Of a stretch of 17,850 nt of DNA, positions 10,876 to 17,850 are shown piece after piece. The position numbers and the translations under genes were made by a program. Positions within the stretch are counted from its first letter, which is position 1. Each line of letters opens with the position of its first letter. The DNA comes from Gemmatimonadota bacterium (GTDB taxonomy: Bacteria > GCA-2686955): contig NYZA01000005.1 of NCBI GenBank assembly GCA_002686955.1, forward strand, positions 1 to 17,850, given 5' to 3'. The notes under the pieces are model-generated. The model had not been told where the DNA came from and searched no databases. It saw nothing but the letters and a program-made list of their open reading frames with translations.

Positions 10876-11937
10876 ATGCTCGGAGAAGAGCTGTTCATCG
10901 AACTGAGCCTTGGATCGGCGCTGCAGGTGGTGATGCTGGGATTCATCGGAGGCATGCTCAGCGGATTCATCGGCAGCGGTGGCGCTTTCTTCATGACACC
11001 GGGCATGATGAACCTCGGTGTTCCCGGTGTTGTCGCGGTTGGCAGCAACATCACCCACAAATTCGGAAAGGCGCTGGTCGGTTCGAAGAAGCACGGTGAG
11101 ATGGGAAATGTCGACAAGCTGCTCGGGATGTGCATGCTGGTCACCGCCTCGGCCGGCATCTCGATCGCCGCGTTCCTGAACAGCCACTTCTTCAAATCCG
11201 CCGAAGGATCCGCCGGCGGCGACCTGTACATCAGTGTGATCTTCATCTCTTTCCTGTCGATCGTCTCGGTCTCGATGCTGAGCGATGTCTGGAGAGCCGC
11301 GCCAGGGGAAGGGCCATCGCTCAAAATCGCGGAGATCTGTTCCCGAATTCGACTGTGGCCGATGATCCACTTCAAAGTGGCAGATGTGAGAGTTTCGCTC
11401 TGGGTCATCATGCCGATCGGTCTCGCGACCGGCTTTCTGGCCGGCACGATCGGAGTCGGCGGGTTCATCGGTGTGCCGGCGATGATCTACGTGCTCGGTA
11501 TTCCGACGGCCGTAGCGGCTGGCACGGAGCTGTACCTAGCGGTGTTCATGGGCGCGTGGGGTTGTCTCAACTACGCTTGGAACGGCTACGTCGACCTTCG
11601 TCTAACCCTGCTTCTCTATGTTGGTTCGCTCGTGGGCATCCACCTCGGCGCGTACGGGACCAAGGTCGTGAAGGAGGTGTATATCCGCTTGGTGACGGGA
11701 GTGATCATTCTACTCTGTGTGGTCAGTCGGCTGATCGCGACACCCGAGTACCTTCGAAGGCTGGGCTACATCGACATCGATCCCCGACACGACATCTGGT
11801 GGGACTACACCAGCAAGACGATCCTCTTCGCCAGTGGAATCGTCGGTGCGCTCGCTATCTTGTGGACCGTTGGCCGAGCCTATGTTCACAGGCGAAGGTT
11901 GCGGGCCAGCTTGTTCGTGGCGCAATCAGGCGAGTAG
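10876..11937 (+). CDS. TSUP-family (TauE/SafE) anion permease
   Basis: A 353-residue membrane protein with the two homologous TSUP halves. The first is 'GFIGGMLSGFIGSGGAFF' with 'GVPGVVAVGSN'; the second is 'GLATGFLAGTIGVGGFIG' with 'GIPTAVAAGTELY'. About eight or nine hydrophobic segments are visible, and a central cytoplasmic-type loop ('RAAPGEGPSLKIAEICSR') separates the halves. Family members export or import sulfite, sulfoacetate, taurine-derived sulfonates or related organic anions; the substrate here is unknown. I prefer the ATG at 10876 to a GTG at 10870 because GGAG (10865-10868) is then 7 bases away. It is tightly coupled to the kinase-like gene. Its last 12 bases overlap the end of the minus-strand pseudokinase gene. 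Confidence 0.92.
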   Translation: MLGEELFIELSLGSALQVVMLGFIGGMLSGFIGSGGAFFMTPGMMNLGVPGVVAVGSNITHKFGKALVGSKKHGEMGNVDKLLGMCMLVTASAGISIAAFLNSHFFKSAEGSAGGDLYISVIFISFLSIVSVSMLSDVWRAAPGEGPSLKIAEICSRIRLWPMIHFKVADVRVSLWVIMPIGLATGFLAGTIGVGGFIGVPAMIYVLGIPTAVAAGTELYLAVFMGAWGCLNYAWNGYVDLRLTLLLYVGSLVGIHLGAYGTKVVKEVYIRLVTGVIILLCVVSRLIATPEYLRRLGYIDIDPRHDIWWDYTSKTILFASGIVGALAILWTVGRAYVHRRRLRASLFVAQSGE

Positions 11938-13410
11938 CCGACACAATTTCGGTACGAGCGCTTTGACGTCGTAACGGAGCGCCCCGAGCATCATGGAAGC
12001 ATCGGCCGATATCGCGAGTACGAAACCACGAGCCAGGGGTACCAGAAGGAACATCCCAGACGCGTTTTCGGCTAAGACCAGCTTGGGGTCTTCCTGCTTG
12101 ATGCGCTCGGTAGCTTTGATCGCGGCGACGAAGAAGAGCTGAACGGCGGAGCCGAGAGTGTCGAAATCGACATTCGCTTTTCCCCGGATTCGGGCGACGA
12201 GCCCATCGCCGTCGACCAAGGCGGCCGCGATGACACCTTCGATCGCCACGATCTTCTCGAGGCATTCATCCAGTCCAGAATCTCTGTCGCCCCATGGGCG
12301 CAACAACGGTTCCGAATGGGCGAGAGGCGGCGCGGATGCGTCTTCGCTCGACTCCACAATCGATCTGTCGCTCAGCTCCCCTATCACTTTCAGAGTGGGG
12401 GGCGGCGGCTCCTCGTGAGGAGTGACTTCGTTGTCGGGTGGGGCGGAGCAGGTTGCTGGCTTCTCGGATTCGCGCTCCGGCGCAACCGCCTCGGTCTCGA
12501 TTCCCGCGGCGGATGCCAATGCCAGCCGCAACTCAGCGGCACCTCTGAATCGCCCCCTCGGATCTTTGTTCATCCCCTTCTCGATCACTTCGTGCAACTC
12601 GGGCGGGATGCGCGGGGAGAGAGGAAGCTGGAACATCATGTGGCCGAGGCGAGACTCTCGTCCATTCGTTCCAAAAGGTGGAGCACTGTCCATTAGAACG
12701 AAAAGAGTCGCGGCAACGGAGTAGATATCACTTCTGGGTGTCGGTGCCTCGCCTCGAATGCACTCGGGGCTGCTGCACGGGTACCGTCGATCGAGCACCC
12801 CCTTCATCTCATCTCGCGGATCCAGGAGTGCCCGCATGCCGAAGCCGGCGATTCTGGCCTCGTCGCTTCCGACCAGCAGCACCGTGTCGATATCGAGACA
12901 GCCGTGCACGGCCCCCAACCCGTGAGCGTACTCCAGCCCTTTCAGAATCTGGATCCCAAGGAGGACGGCGCGATTCGGAGCGACCCGGCCTGTAGCCAAT
13001 CTCTCGAGAACATGGGCAAAGGGACGCCCGCTCGCTTTTTCGGTGATCAGGAACTCGAGATCGCCGTGCCTACGGTGCGAGAGAGTTCTCACAATGTTCT
13101 CGTGGCGCAGCAGGGTCGCCTTCTCGCATTCCTCCGCCAGTGTCGCGCCAGCCCACTGTTTGAACCCGGAATCGCCAACGTCCTCGTAGTGGATGAGATG
13201 AAGGGTGACCGCCTCCCCTCGTTCGATATCGGTCGCAAGATAGGACGATGAAAGCACCCCGAGGAAATATCTGCGCTCGAGCCGATAGCGGCCGTCCAGC
13301 AACTCGCCGATCGAGGGCTGCGGCACGTTTCGCGGAGCGCTCGTACGCTTGCGCAAGGTCCGCAAACGTGCAATCAGCTCGGCGTTCCCGAGATCTCTCA
13401 GTGCAATCAT
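11926..13410 (-). CDS. Pseudokinase (STK fold) fused to a C-terminal Roadblock/LC7-like domain
   Basis: A 494-residue cytoplasmic protein. Residues 40-300 follow the Ser/Thr kinase fold: 'DGRYRLERRYFLG', an alpha-C E94, 'RHENIVRTL', 'SSPECIRG' (the APE-like motif) and 'SDIYSVAATLFVLM'. Every catalytic residue is changed: the VAIK lysine position reads 'VTLHLIH', HRD is H169-G-C171, the catalytic-loop Lys and Asn are Asp and Thr ('HGCLDIDTVLL'), and DFG is G189-F-G. The Gly-loop is degenerate too. Residues 305-372 are a Pro/Glu/Ser-rich linker. Residues 378-493 match a Roadblock/LC7 (MglB-like) domain: 'LEKIVAIEGVIAAALVDGDG' and 'GMFLLVPLARGFVLAISAD'. It is thus probably a scaffold or small-GTPase-linked regulator rather than an enzyme. 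GGAGG lies 8 bases before the ATG. It follows the sigma-54 activator gene after 169 bases in the same direction. Confidence 0.88.
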   Translation of the reverse strand: MIALRDLGNAELIARLRTLRKRTSAPRNVPQPSIGELLDGRYRLERRYFLGVLSSSYLATDIERGEAVTLHLIHYEDVGDSGFKQWAGATLAEECEKATLLRHENIVRTLSHRRHGDLEFLITEKASGRPFAHVLERLATGRVAPNRAVLLGIQILKGLEYAHGLGAVHGCLDIDTVLLVGSDEARIAGFGMRALLDPRDEMKGVLDRRYPCSSPECIRGEAPTPRSDIYSVAATLFVLMDSAPPFGTNGRESRLGHMMFQLPLSPRIPPELHEVIEKGMNKDPRGRFRGAAELRLALASAAGIETEAVAPERESEKPATCSAPPDNEVTPHEEPPPPTLKVIGELSDRSIVESSEDASAPPLAHSEPLLRPWGDRDSGLDECLEKIVAIEGVIAAALVDGDGLVARIRGKANVDFDTLGSAVQLFFVAAIKATERIKQEDPKLVLAENASGMFLLVPLARGFVLAISADASMMLGALRYDVKALVPKLCRLLA

Positions 13411-13579: not shown

Positions 13580-15157
13580 CTATCCGGAACCGGTTCTGAA
13601 TCCTCGCGCGCCACCGAGACCCAGCTTCTGCATGCGGCTGCGAAGTGTACTCGGGTTGATTCCCAAGATCTCGGCCGACCCGCCCGGACCGTAGAGCTTG
13701 CCTCCCGTGCGCTCGAGGGCCGCGACGATGTGACGACGCTCCATCTCTCGCAGAGTTGGCAGACTTACGCTGCTCACGGGCGATTCGACCGGCTCGGCAC
13801 CGGCGGTCTCATGCCGCATCTCGTCAGCTCCGAAATCGAGCTCCGATCCCGGGCTGAGGATCGTGGCACGCTCCAGCGTGTTGACCAATTCGCGCACATT
13901 GCCCCGCCAGGTTTGCTTCGAGAGCCACTGCTCGGCCCGCTCGCCGAAGCGCCACGGACCACGCCCCGTACGCCTGCTCAATTGATCTAGAAACCCCTCC
14001 GCGATCGGAGCGATATCTTCTCGGCGTTCACGCAAGGGGGGGATGTGGACCGGGAAGACCGCGAGACGGTAGTAGAGGTCTTGCCTGAATCGCTGCTCCG
14101 CGACCGCGCGGAGAAGATCGATGTTGGTCGCGGCGATGACCCGTACATCGACGCGGATCGTCCGGTCGCTGCCCACCGGCTCGAAACAGCCTTCCTGCAG
14201 AGCCCGCAAGAGCTTCGCTTGCAGGTCGAGCGGCATCTCTCCGATCTCGTCGAGGAAGAGCGTGCCGCCGTTCGCCGCTTGAAACCGTCCGATCCGGTTC
14301 TTCGTGGCTCCGCTGAATGCGCCTTTGACGTGTCCGAAGAGCTCGCTCTCGATCAAGCTCGGTGGCAACGCGGCACAGTTGATGCCGACCAGCGGTCGCT
14401 TGGCCCGTTCGCCCCAGCCGTGAATCGCGTTCGCCAAGACCTCTTTCCCCGTCCCGGTCTCACCAGTTATGAGAACCGGGGTGCCCGATTGCGCCACCCG
14501 TCTGGCGACACCCACGACCCGCGACATGGCCGGGCTCCGGCTCGCCTCCATCATCTCGCAGGCATCGCCTCTGGCGCCGACCCGCTCGCGGAGCAAACGG
14601 TTCTGCTCTCGCAGTTGCTGGCTCATCCTTCCCAACATGGAGGATTGCTCGCCGTAGCTCATAGCCATGGCCAGGAGCTTTCCGAAGACATCGGCCAGCT
14701 CGACGACGGTCGAAGGGTACTCCCCGCAGATTCGCCGATCGAAAGTCATGATGCCCAAAGCGCCGGAGCGGGCACGGAGGGGCACCACCATGCAGGAGTG
14801 CCCATGGGGTAGGTCCAAGACACCGTCGAAGGCGTCTCCGTCCCCGTCCCGGTGGTCGTGCTCCGTGAATGCCCTGGCACGATCGCCCCTCAACAGATCG
14901 CGGATTCCAGGGAACCGATTCAAATCGAGCTGATGTCGCTCCACCACCGGCCCCGCGAGCGGGCCTCGTGCGACCCGAACCCGCAATCGCTCTCCGCTCA
15001 GCTCCATGATCGTCGCGAGATCGTACGGAACCAAGCCACCGAGGATCTCCATCGCCTCACCGAGCAGCTCGTTCACCTGTTCCACCGTCGTTCCCAGATC
15101 GAGGGCGGCACTGATATCGCGCGTAAGGTCGAGAATCGTCCGGCCGGGCCGTGGCAT
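13580..15157 (-). CDS. Sigma-54-dependent activator: GAF, AAA+ and Fis-type HTH domains
   Basis: A 525-residue bacterial enhancer-binding protein of NorR/FhlA-like layout. A GAF-like sensor domain covers about 15-170, followed by a short coiled linker (175-195). The AAA+ ATPase covers about 205-435, with Walker A 'GETGTGKE' (232-239), the sigma-54-contacting loop 'GAFSGA' (279-284, Ser in place of the usual Thr), Walker B '[11 protein letters not shown]' (297-307) and '[10 protein letters not shown]'. A Fis HTH follows at about 475-512 ('[20 protein letters not shown]'). I take the ATG at 15157 because GGAGG lies 5 bases upstream. A longer frame reaching 15259 would run through the repeated operator-like elements. 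The gene diverges from the peroxiredoxin operon, whose upstream region carries a -24/-12 promoter, so this is its likely activator. The GAF ligand (peroxide, NO or a metabolite) is unknown. Confidence 0.95.
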
Positions 15158-15193
15158 CTGCGCCTCCGGGTCGTGTGTCGCGCGGGATCGCGC

Positions 15194-15254
15194 AATATCG
15201 CGGAAGTGGGAGCATAGCGCGATATTTCGGGGTTCGGCAGCGCCAAATATCGCG
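15194..15254. promoter_or_regulatory. Three-copy AATATCGCG element, likely enhancer (UAS) for the sigma-54 activator
   Basis: The element occurs as AATATCGCG (15194-15202), CGCGATATTT (15218-15227) and AAATATCGCG (15245-15254), in alternating orientation. Copies 2 and 3 are a perfect 10-base inverted repeat with a 17-base spacer; copies 1 and 2 pair over 9 bases with a 15-base spacer. They lie upstream of both divergent genes and about 73-148 bases upstream of the -24/-12 promoter, the normal position for enhancer sites. Three sites upstream of a sigma-54 promoter recall the NorR-norVW arrangement, although the motif differs from NorR's. Confidence 0.75.
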
Positions 15255-15326
15255 TTCACCCGGTGGCCGCGCTCAGTCCAAATGTTAACTCTTTGCCATA
15301 CAATCTATTACGCCGTTACAGCGCGT

Positions 15327-15342
15327 TGGCACACGCCGTGCT
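15327..15342 (+). promoter_or_regulatory. Sigma-54 (-24/-12) promoter for the peroxiredoxin-sodB operon
   Basis: TGGCACACGCCGTGCT matches the TGGCAC-N5-TTGCW consensus with one mismatch. The invariant GG (15328-15329) and GC (15340-15341) are exactly 10 bases apart. The predicted transcription start is near 15353, giving a leader of about 70 bases before the ATG at 15423. The AT-rich stretch upstream (about 15280-15312) could help DNA bending between the enhancer and the promoter. Confidence 0.8.
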
Positions 15343-15422
15343 ATATAGAGCCTGAGCAAGATGTCGCAGTTCCTGGAAGCGGCCACTTCAACCCAAGAAA
15401 CCCTGAAGGAAGAGAGAGAACC

Positions 15423-16019
15423 ATGAGCACGCTGATCGGCAAGCAAGCCCCCGACTTCGCCGCCCCCGCCGTTCTCGGCAACAACTCGATCGTTGAGGGC
15501 TATGGCCTGAGCGATCTCAAGGGCAAGTACGTCGTACTCTTCTTCTACCCCCTCGATTTCACCTTCGTTTGCCCGACCGAGATCATCGAATTCAATCGCA
15601 AGCTCTCGGCCTTCAATGAGCTCGGCGCCGAGGTGATCGGTGTGTCGGTCGACAGCCAGTTCTCCCACCTCGCCTGGAAAAACACCGAGGTATCGCAGGG
15701 CGGTATCGGCAACATCCAGTACCCGCTGGTGGCCGACCTGACCAAAGAGATCAGCCGTGACTACGGCGTGCTCCTCGAGGACGCGGGTGTTGCGTTCCGC
15801 GGCACCTTCCTGATCGACCGCGAAGGCGTCGTGAAGCACGCTGTGATCAACGATCTGGGACTCGGTCGCAACATCGATGAGACGCTGCGCATGGTCAAGG
15901 CGCTGCGCCACCACGAAGAGCACGGCGAGGTCTGCCCGGCGAACTGGAACGAAGGCGAAGAGGCGATGCAACCCTCGCCCGAGGGTGTCGCCGACTACCT
16001 CACCAAGCACGGTGCGTGA
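15423..16019 (+). CDS. Typical 2-Cys peroxiredoxin (AhpC/Prx1 type)
   Basis: A 198-residue thioredoxin-fold peroxidase that reduces H2O2 and organic or nitrogen-centred peroxides. The peroxidatic cysteine is C50 in '[12 protein letters not shown]' and the resolving cysteine is C171 in 'GEVCPANW', so it is the dimeric typical 2-Cys class. A GGIG motif is present (93-96), but the C-terminal YF associated with over-oxidation sensitivity reads YL ('DYLTKHGA'). No AhpF-like reductase gene is visible nearby, so the thioredoxin system is the probable reductant. An AGGA/GAGAG-rich SD region lies just upstream of the ATG. It is the first gene of an operon with sodB, 14 bases downstream, and sits behind the sigma-54 promoter, facing away from the GAF-AAA-Fis activator. 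Confidence 0.96.
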
Positions 16020-16033
16020 AAGAGAGACGGATA

Positions 16034-16624
16034 ATGGCTTTTCAACTTCCCCCTCTGCCCTGGTCCTCCGACGCGCTGGAGCCCTACATATCCGCCAAGA
16101 CGATGAGCTTTCACTACGGCAAGCATCATATGGCGTATGTGAACAAGCTGAACGCGGCGATCGAAAACACGCCGCTCGCGGAGATGAGCCTCGAGCAGAT
16201 CATCACCGAAACGGCGAATGACGCATCCAAGGCCGGGATCTTCAACAACGCGGCCCAGGTTTGGAATCATACGTTCTTCTGGCGCTCGATGAAGCCCGGC
16301 GGCGGTGGCGAGCCGACCGGGGAGCTGGCGGAGAAAATCGTTGCAGCCTTCGGTAGCATCGACGCTTTCAAGGAGGAGTTCGCGACGAAGGCCGCGACAC
16401 TATTCGGAAGCGGTTGGACATGGCTCGTGGATAGCAAGGGTTCGCTCGAGATCGTGCAGACCACCAACGCCGGCAATCCGCTCACGGAAGGCATGACTCC
16501 ACTTCTCACTCTCGATGTATGGGAGCACGCCTACTATCTCGACTATCAGAATCGGCGCCCCGACTTCATCAAGACCTACCTCGATGAGCTCGTCGATTGG
16601 GAGTTCGCCGCCAAAAACCTCTAG
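16034..16624 (+). CDS. sodB: Superoxide dismutase, Fe type
   Basis: A 196-residue Fe/Mn-family superoxide dismutase that converts superoxide to O2 and H2O2 in the cytoplasm. The metal ligands are H27 ('SFHYGKHH'), H79 ('QVWNHTFFW'), D161 and H165 ('DVWEHAYYLDYQ'). Q75 in 'AAQVWNHT' together with 'NAGNPL' (no Gln at the Mn-type position) points to the iron form, though metal use can be cambialistic. The ATG at 16034 fits the family N terminus; an in-frame GTG at 16016 overlapping the upstream stop is less likely. AGAGAGACGG provides the SD. It lies 14 bases after the peroxiredoxin gene, so the H2O2 made here can be removed by the product of the same operon. A hairpin follows the gene. Confidence 0.97.
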   Translation: MAFQLPPLPWSSDALEPYISAKTMSFHYGKHHMAYVNKLNAAIENTPLAEMSLEQIITETANDASKAGIFNNAAQVWNHTFFWRSMKPGGGGEPTGELAEKIVAAFGSIDAFKEEFATKAATLFGSGWTWLVDSKGSLEIVQTTNAGNPLTEGMTPLLTLDVWEHAYYLDYQNRRPDFIKTYLDELVDWEFAAKNL

Positions 16625-16673
16625 AGACGGTTTCCCGATCGTCTCGAGTGCACAACGTCCGGGTGCACAAAGA

Positions 16674-16717
16674 GAAGCGCCCCCGCCCGCTCCCAGGAGC
16701 CGTGGCGGGGGCGCTTC
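16674..16717. terminator. Strong hairpin between convergent sodB and PEP carboxykinase genes
   Basis: GAAGCGCCCCCGCC (16674-16687) and GGCGGGGGCGCTTC (16704-16717) form a perfect 14-base-pair stem. A small inner GCTC/GAGC stem is possible inside the loop. Only three T's follow on either strand (TTT in 'gaattt', and TTT on the minus strand), so the U-tracts are weak. The placement between two convergent genes suggests a bidirectional terminator. A weaker GAGACG/CGTCTC dyad (16624-16645) precedes it. Confidence 0.75.
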
Positions 16718-16740
16718 GAATTTGCGCTCATGCGGCGAGA

Positions 16741-17850
16741 TCAGCTCTGAAGCTGCTCCGGCGTCACGATCGGGCCGAAGCGCTCCTTCAGACCGAGCAA
16801 CCCGGCCCTCTGCGCCTTCAGCACCTCGAAAAGCTTCTCCGGGACATTCTCCTCCTTGCGATATGCCCCCTCTTGCAGGTCGATCCTCGACACGATCTTC
16901 TCGATGTAGAGCGAGAACTGCTTCGCATAGAGATCTTCGGCGTACTCCTTGTCGATGATCGACTCGAAGAGCGTCCGAAGATCCTCGTACTTCGGCAGAT
17001 TCCCGACCGGAGTCTCGATCGAGTCGACTTCACCATGGGCATAGCGCTCGACCCAGGCCAGCCAGACCTTCACGTCCCGCTTCTCACCCAGAAGCTTCTT
17101 CGAGCTGCCGTCCCGGGCTTCGTCGGTCAAGAAGTAGTTGAGTCCGGCCATGACCGGCTTTTTGTCGTCCGCGATCGCGTCGCTGCCGAAGAACTTGAAC
17201 TGCGCGTCCATATAGTCGCCGAGCGAGCCGGGGATGAAGGGAGCGTTGGCCCAAGGAGCACGCTTCACGCCGGTCGCTCCGACCTCGGTGGCGGTCGCCG
17301 CCGAGACGATGCAGGCGCCGATGACCACACCTTCGTCCGATCCTGGCGCCACCCAGACCGGCGGCATTGTGTCGCTGTCTCGACCGCTATAGGTGATGAT
17401 GCGGGTCTCGACACCATCGGGATGCTCCGCGAGAGTGTTGTAGTTCGCGAGCGCCGTGGAAGCGACGGTGCAGCGAGCATTCGGATGAGAGATCGGAACC
17501 TCTTTCCCATTATCGTCCACCATGCCCTGATTCCACTCGCCCTGGAAGTTCCGCCCATGGGAGGGGGACTCTTCGCCGTTGCCGGTCCAGTGAGGAACCC
17601 CATTCTCATCGATCAGCACGTTCGACCAGATCACCTCGGTGCCGGGTTCGCGCAAGAGCTTCATCAGATGGGGATCGCCCTCCCAATTCACATCGGCGAC
17701 GATTCCGAAGATGCCGCACTCCGGATTGATCGAACGGATGGCGCCATCGTCCGCGATCCACATCTGGGCCAGATCATCGCCGACGAACTGGCTGCCGGCC
17801 ATCGCGGTGGTCGTCTTTCCGCAGCCACTGGGAGCCGCCCCGGCGCACCA
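16741..17850 (-). CDS. pckG: Phosphoenolpyruvate carboxykinase, GTP-dependent (N terminus beyond the window)
   Basis: The frame is open from the right edge to the TGA at 16741-16743, giving the C-terminal 369 residues of a protein that is usually about 600 long. The kinase-type P-loop is visible at the edge ('APSGCGKTTTAMAG', from 17832). 'GDDLAQMWIADDGAIRSINP' with 'CGIFGIVADVN' and 'GRDSDTMPPVWVAPG' also match GTP-type PEPCK. An apparent ATG at 17802 is internal and lies just after the P-loop, so it is not the start. The enzyme interconverts oxaloacetate and PEP with GTP/GDP, in gluconeogenesis or anaplerosis. The sequence seems closer to the archaeal/other-bacterial GTP form than to the vertebrate type, but I cannot test this. 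It is convergent with sodB, separated by a hairpin. Confidence 0.93.
   Translation of the reverse strand, partial: WCAGAAPSGCGKTTTAMAGSQFVGDDLAQMWIADDGAIRSINPECGIFGIVADVNWEGDPHLMKLLREPGTEVIWSNVLIDENGVPHWTGNGEESPSHGRNFQGEWNQGMVDDNGKEVPISHPNARCTVASTALANYNTLAEHPDGVETRIITYSGRDSDTMPPVWVAPGSDEGVVIGACIVSAATATEVGATGVKRAPWANAPFIPGSLGDYMDAQFKFFGSDAIADDKKPVMAGLNYFLTDEARDGSSKKLLGEKRDVKVWLAWVERYAHGEVDSIETPVGNLPKYEDLRTLFESIIDKEYAEDLYAKQFSLYIEKIVSRIDLQEGAYRKEENVPEKLFEVLKAQRAGLLGLKERFGPIVTPEQLQS

Follow-up and report, generated by a model that had tools for sequence, protein, structure and literature searches.

A gene for a GAF-AAA+-Fis sigma-54 activator (bEBP) lies divergent from a peroxiredoxin-superoxide dismutase (prx-sodB) operon in the 17.85-kb stretch of DNA analyzed here (the window), and a predicted -24/-12 promoter faces the operon. 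We regard it as probable that this NorR-derived activator responds to peroxide or another oxidant and activates antioxidant operons through sigma-54. The predicted wiring is strongly supported by comparison among genomes, while the signal is one that we infer. That an antioxidant operon is under a dedicated sigma-54 activator of the GAF type had been proposed in the preliminary description of this DNA, and the proposal is supported by the cross-phylum comparison, the promoter and the presence of rpoN.

The divergent arrangement of the activator gene and the peroxiredoxin and Fe-SOD genes, claimed in that description, was borne out by the ORFs and domain calls (Table 1), and the two operon genes are separated by 14 nt. 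The ATG start of the activator at 15157 is backed by alignment with its orthologue in the only other genome of the same phylum compared (G001). The strand of the activator also encodes, downstream of it, a protein kinase that has a Roadblock/LC7 domain at its C terminus (window 11926-13410, minus strand).

Table 1. Positions of the activator, its putative sites and the divergent operon in the window.
Feature	Position	Strand	Basis and remarks
GAF-AAA+-Fis sigma-54 activator (bEBP) ORF	13580..15157	-	525 aa; domain searches and alignments
Enhancer-like site 1, CGCAATATCGCG	15191..15202	+	Repeat search and motif location; family palindrome consensus
Enhancer-like site 2, CGAAATATCGCG (= CGCGATATTTCG on +)	15218..15229	-	Repeat search and motif location
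Enhancer-like site 3, CCAAATATCGCG	15243..15254	+	Repeat search and motif location
-24/-12 sigma-54 promoter (predicted), TGGCACA-CGCC-GTGCT = TGGCACACGCCGTGCT	15327..15342	+	GG-N10-GC; start predicted near 15353
Typical 2-Cys peroxiredoxin, AhpC/TSA (AhpC/Prx1 type)	15423..16019	+	Domain/family search
Iron-type superoxide dismutase (Fe/Mn SOD family, sodB-like), second gene of operon	16034..16624	+	Domain/family search

The family search assigned GAF_3, Sigma54_activat, AAA lid and HTH_8 domains to the activator, with the GAF domain at residues 29-166, the sigma-54 interaction AAA+ domain at 207-370 and the Fis helix-turn-helix (HTH) at 468-512. The protein carries the features of a bEBP: an AAA+ domain with Walker A and B motifs, a GAFTGA loop, an arginine finger and the Fis HTH, with a -24/-12 element ahead of the target and an rpoN gene in the same genome. 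In the window activator the loop reads GAFSGA, and this change from T to S is common to many members of the family.

The promoter element had been described as having GG-N10-GC spacing and a single mismatch to consensus. This description holds with respect to TGGCAYRNNNNTTGCW, from which TGGCACACGCCGTGCT differs at one position; it differs from TGGCACGNNNNTTGCW at two. The element was the top GG-N10-GC match on both strands of the window, where 0.13 equally good matches would be expected by chance, and the shuffled intergenic region alone reached its score with P of about 0.01. Taken alone, the element constitutes modest evidence. Three observations named beforehand as refuting were a rival sigma-70 promoter, the absence of rpoN and the loss of the element in relatives. 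A scan of 15100-16760 gave no sigma-70-like site; rpoN is present in the same genome (E 7e-63); and G001 retains the activator and the motifs as well as a -24/-12 element before sodB. It is the conservation of the element in relatives that makes its assignment convincing.

Three copies of the CGAAATATCGCG type, in the orientation +, -, +, occupy 15191-15254, between the activator start and the promoter (the repeat search showed two copies of the motif, and the motif scan placed three cores). The inverted pair of cores is unique in the 4.28-Mb assembly. In G001, whose activator orthologue (75% identity) is divergent from sodB alone, the three sites recur in the same order and orientation, with TGGTATGAATAATGCA ahead of the gene. 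Two more distant relatives face other targets, each with an 11/12 match to the -24/-12 element on the target strand: that of G029 (53%) is divergent from ahpC-ahpD-dps, and that of G052 (46%) from katG, where 366 nt separate the element from the annotated start of the gene.

Across the family, the palindrome CACCGAAATnTCGGTG was the strongest shared word, occurring in two to three copies in 19 of 19 diverse intergenic regions; the window sites fit it in part only (12/16 at best). The three-site layout between activator and -24, known from norR-norV, was seen in the window, in G001 and G052 and at several other loci, while myxobacterial loci mostly had two sites at the cut-off used. At four loci from Myxococcus-type genomes (L146, L148, L149 and L181) an insertion splits the activator from ahpC; there the palindrome pair occurs twice, once beside each gene, and the -24/-12 element is kept 80 nt before ahpC.

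The distribution of the activator clade was surveyed with a profile built from the GAF part only, at a loose cut-off. The clade was detected in five phylum-level groups, including that of the window, in which both genomes carry it. It occurs in 1 of 5 genomes of the G052 group, 2 of 8 of the G427 group and 35 of 282 of the G570 group. In the phylum of G029, 82 of 195 genomes matched at the loose cut-off, the weakest matches being NorR types. A sample spread over 386 genomes yielded 13 matches at this cut-off, of which G427 and G570 alone added clade members from groups not yet represented.

A redox-defense gene was divergent from the activator in 72 of the 88 clade loci read, most of which come from one myxobacteria-like family, such that the counts are not independent. 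The divergent targets comprised ahpC (55 loci), dihydrolipoyl dehydrogenase (4), prx (3), and katG, rubrerythrin and dps (2 each), with sodB, a di-haem peroxidase, a catalase and a Prx-glutaredoxin at one locus each; no recognized redox gene was divergent in the remaining 16. Among 106 generic bEBP loci, collected as a control by contig search with conserved AAA+ peptides, such a gene was present in only one, despite a larger mean locus size. Since many of the 72 loci are close relatives, the strength of this result lies not in the count but in the replacement of targets: about ten target families replace each other across the clade, and on the tree the target group must have changed at least 13 times (the NorR types being treated as one group).

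Several loci depart from the common pattern. The clade member at L178 (G222), with a perfect -24/-12 element, faces a respiratory operon of the cytochrome c7/molybdopterin type rather than an antioxidant gene. At L219, L222, L223 and L224, all from one lineage, the target is a dihydrolipoyl dehydrogenase-like flavoprotein that may supply an AhpD-type system with electrons. Genome G124 has a second, diverged copy of the clade activator (L165), which adjoins genes for a TetR-like regulator and an ABC transporter.

Of the 67 redox loci whose loop is intact (including L226 and L180, in which the loop is GAFSGA), 64 have a -24/-12 element that matches at 9/12 or better ahead of the target. The element typically reads TGGCACG-nnnn-CTGCT and is placed 80-90 nt from the start codon, with most elements lying 50-95 nt upstream of the target start. 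The four spacer bases vary freely, as expected for a selected site. Two of the three loci lacking the element have a degenerate version in place, TGGCCCGATTCTCGAT (L208) and TGGCCCACCTCTTGTA (L211), which the strict scan counted as absent. A search of 16 genomes for rpoN found it in 14; the other two assemblies are 75-82% complete.

Five loci (G163, G199, G200, G169 and G248) have no -24/-12 element, and in all five the GAFTGA loop is broken: it is deleted or reads GAFAGA, GAFASA or GG-EGAA. These loci nevertheless retain the GAF residues, the HTH, the palindromes and the ahpC neighbor, and rpoN is kept in four of the five genomes (the fifth is 82% complete). The association between the two losses has a P of 4e-6, by a statistic that ignores relatedness, and on the tree it requires at least two events. 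Their joint loss is strong evidence that, elsewhere in the clade, the activator works its promoter through sigma-54. Three loci from which the sigma-54 element has been lost (L173, L174 and L175) share the word TTGCTTGCG in the intergenic region, perhaps a replacement sigma-70 -35 region.

NorR is a sensor of nitric oxide (NO) and the activator of norVW. The comparison with NorR made in the preliminary description proved apt as regards kinship: the architecture, the iron-site positions and the divergent layout are shared. The window activator belongs, however, to a distinct clade, sister to NorR in the tree (SH-aLRT 100), with an altered iron-site signature. Like NorR of E. coli and its relatives, it is a one-component GAF-AAA+-Fis bEBP, divergent from its target and accompanied by several palindromic enhancer-like sites. 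In contrast to NorR, the Fis domain of the clade has an inserted YGxGG-A motif. The targets differ as well, since prx-sodB in the window and the targets of the family remove oxygen species, whereas those of NorR remove NO.

The candidate iron-site residues of the window activator are H102, D108, D111, H120, C122 and D140, with an additional invariant cysteine, C144. The five positions of the NorR non-haem iron site (D96/D99/H111/C113/D131 in E. coli numbering; D-D-H-C-D) are kept in the clade, D111 being replaced in 3 of 55 members and C122 invariant in all 55. The Arg75 position is occupied by Gly in the window and replaced in 54 of the 55 clade members, whereas it is Arg in 7 of 7 NorR types. 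Conversely, His102 and Cys144 are present in 55 of 55 clade members and in none of the seven NorR types. Arg75 of NorR is the postulated ligand displaced by NO (PMC2941729), and the clade histidine may possibly take its place as a ligand. The structure model, for which related-locus sequences were the only input, was poor at residues 102-116, the ligand loop. Overall, these residues suggest an iron-binding GAF sensor tuned to an oxidant.

In the proposed mechanism, the activator would bind the three palindromic sites adjoining its own gene, and its N-terminal GAF domain, with an altered NorR-like non-haem iron site, would keep the AAA+ ring off. The GAF domain would be changed by an oxidant, for which H2O2 or an organic peroxide is the likeliest candidate and superoxide or O2 a less likely one; the GAFTGA loop would then engage RNA polymerase carrying sigma-54 at the -24/-12 element, turning prx-sodB on.

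The main rival retains this wiring and substitutes the signal: the clade would be a NorR variant responding to NO or peroxynitrite, with prx, katG, ahpC and SOD removing peroxynitrite or preventing its formation. All five acidic, histidine and cysteine positions of the NorR iron site are indeed kept, NorR is the best NCBIfam match of the window activator, albeit at 363 bits against a cut-off of 476, and AhpC-type peroxiredoxins and KatG are able to reduce peroxynitrite. We nevertheless consider this signal unlikely. The arginine whose displacement by NO is postulated has been lost almost throughout the clade, and none of the divergent neighbors seen in it is a gene for NO reductase, flavorubredoxin, Hmp or RIC, whereas, by ORF reading, two of the NorR types retrieved with the same profile lie near RIC/YtfE-like genes and others near NnrS-like genes. 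Moreover, catalase, di-haem cytochrome c peroxidase and rubrerythrin as targets suit peroxide better.

Quite improbable, in our estimation, is a cue other than oxidant chemistry at an iron center, namely thiol oxidation or another redox or metabolic signal through C122 and C144, or the availability of iron. The invariance of both cysteines would suit a thiol switch, and dps, rubrerythrin, dihydrolipoyl dehydrogenase and the respiratory cytochromes as targets would be compatible with a cue from iron or respiration as well; yet the full carboxylate and histidine set, superfluous for a pure thiol switch, is kept, and most targets remove peroxide. An unrelated activator that merely adjoins stress genes beside a fortuitous -24/-12 match might be imagined in a genome so rich in bEBPs (at least 24 matches), and the shuffle of the single site gave a P of only about 0.01. 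The neighbor class, the element, the palindromes and the coupling of loop and promoter are, however, conserved across five phylum-level groups, and such a chance neighborhood is effectively refuted by the comparative data and extremely improbable.

Returning to an oxidant as signal, a broader reading is marginally favored: that these proteins form an undescribed, multi-phylum class of oxidant-sensing sigma-54 activators, which would have arisen from a NorR-like NO sensor by giving up the Arg75 iron ligand in exchange for a His (plus a second Cys) and would control nearly all known classes of peroxide- and superoxide-removing enzymes, some lineages having shed sigma-54 with the joint loss of loop and -24/-12 element.

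OxyR, PerR, SoxR and Fur are regulators of the LysR, Fur or MerR type that act with sigma-70. Their target genes are of the same kind (ahpC, sod, katG), but to our knowledge these controls involve no sigma-54, ATPase or remote enhancer. No antioxidant wiring of this sigma-54 kind was found described in a literature search covering mainly open-access papers. In Campylobacter jejuni, rpoN has been linked to oxidative stress, the rpoN mutant being more, not less, resistant to peroxide (PMC3196706), and a sigma-54 regulon prediction from 2025 includes the peroxiredoxin COG0450, in Proteobacteria only (PMC12316311); unlike the present system, neither describes a dedicated activator. In Myxococcus xanthus, where rpoN is reported to be essential, MXAN_1565 appears in the papers searched only as an NtrC-like activator in a panel of swarming mutants, with no target, signal or family assigned to it (PMC8570273). 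The order MXAN_1562 (Dps), MXAN_1564 (AhpC) and MXAN_1565 (activator), pieced together from four papers, agrees with locus L181, and from this order of tags MXAN_1565 is probably an orthologue of the clade activator.

These findings point to a NorR-like bEBP with a new class of targets, a putative and hitherto undescribed switch for defense against reactive oxygen. A sigma-54 route with a remodeling ATPase would allow a tight off-state together with strong induction, and it is the predicted antioxidant switch of most of the Myxococcaceae-like genomes examined and of several other groups. The system opens the question of how the ligand specificity of a GAF iron sensor changes, through the swap of Arg to His, and that of the natural exit of an activator from sigma-54, exemplified by the five loci in which loop and promoter element have both gone.
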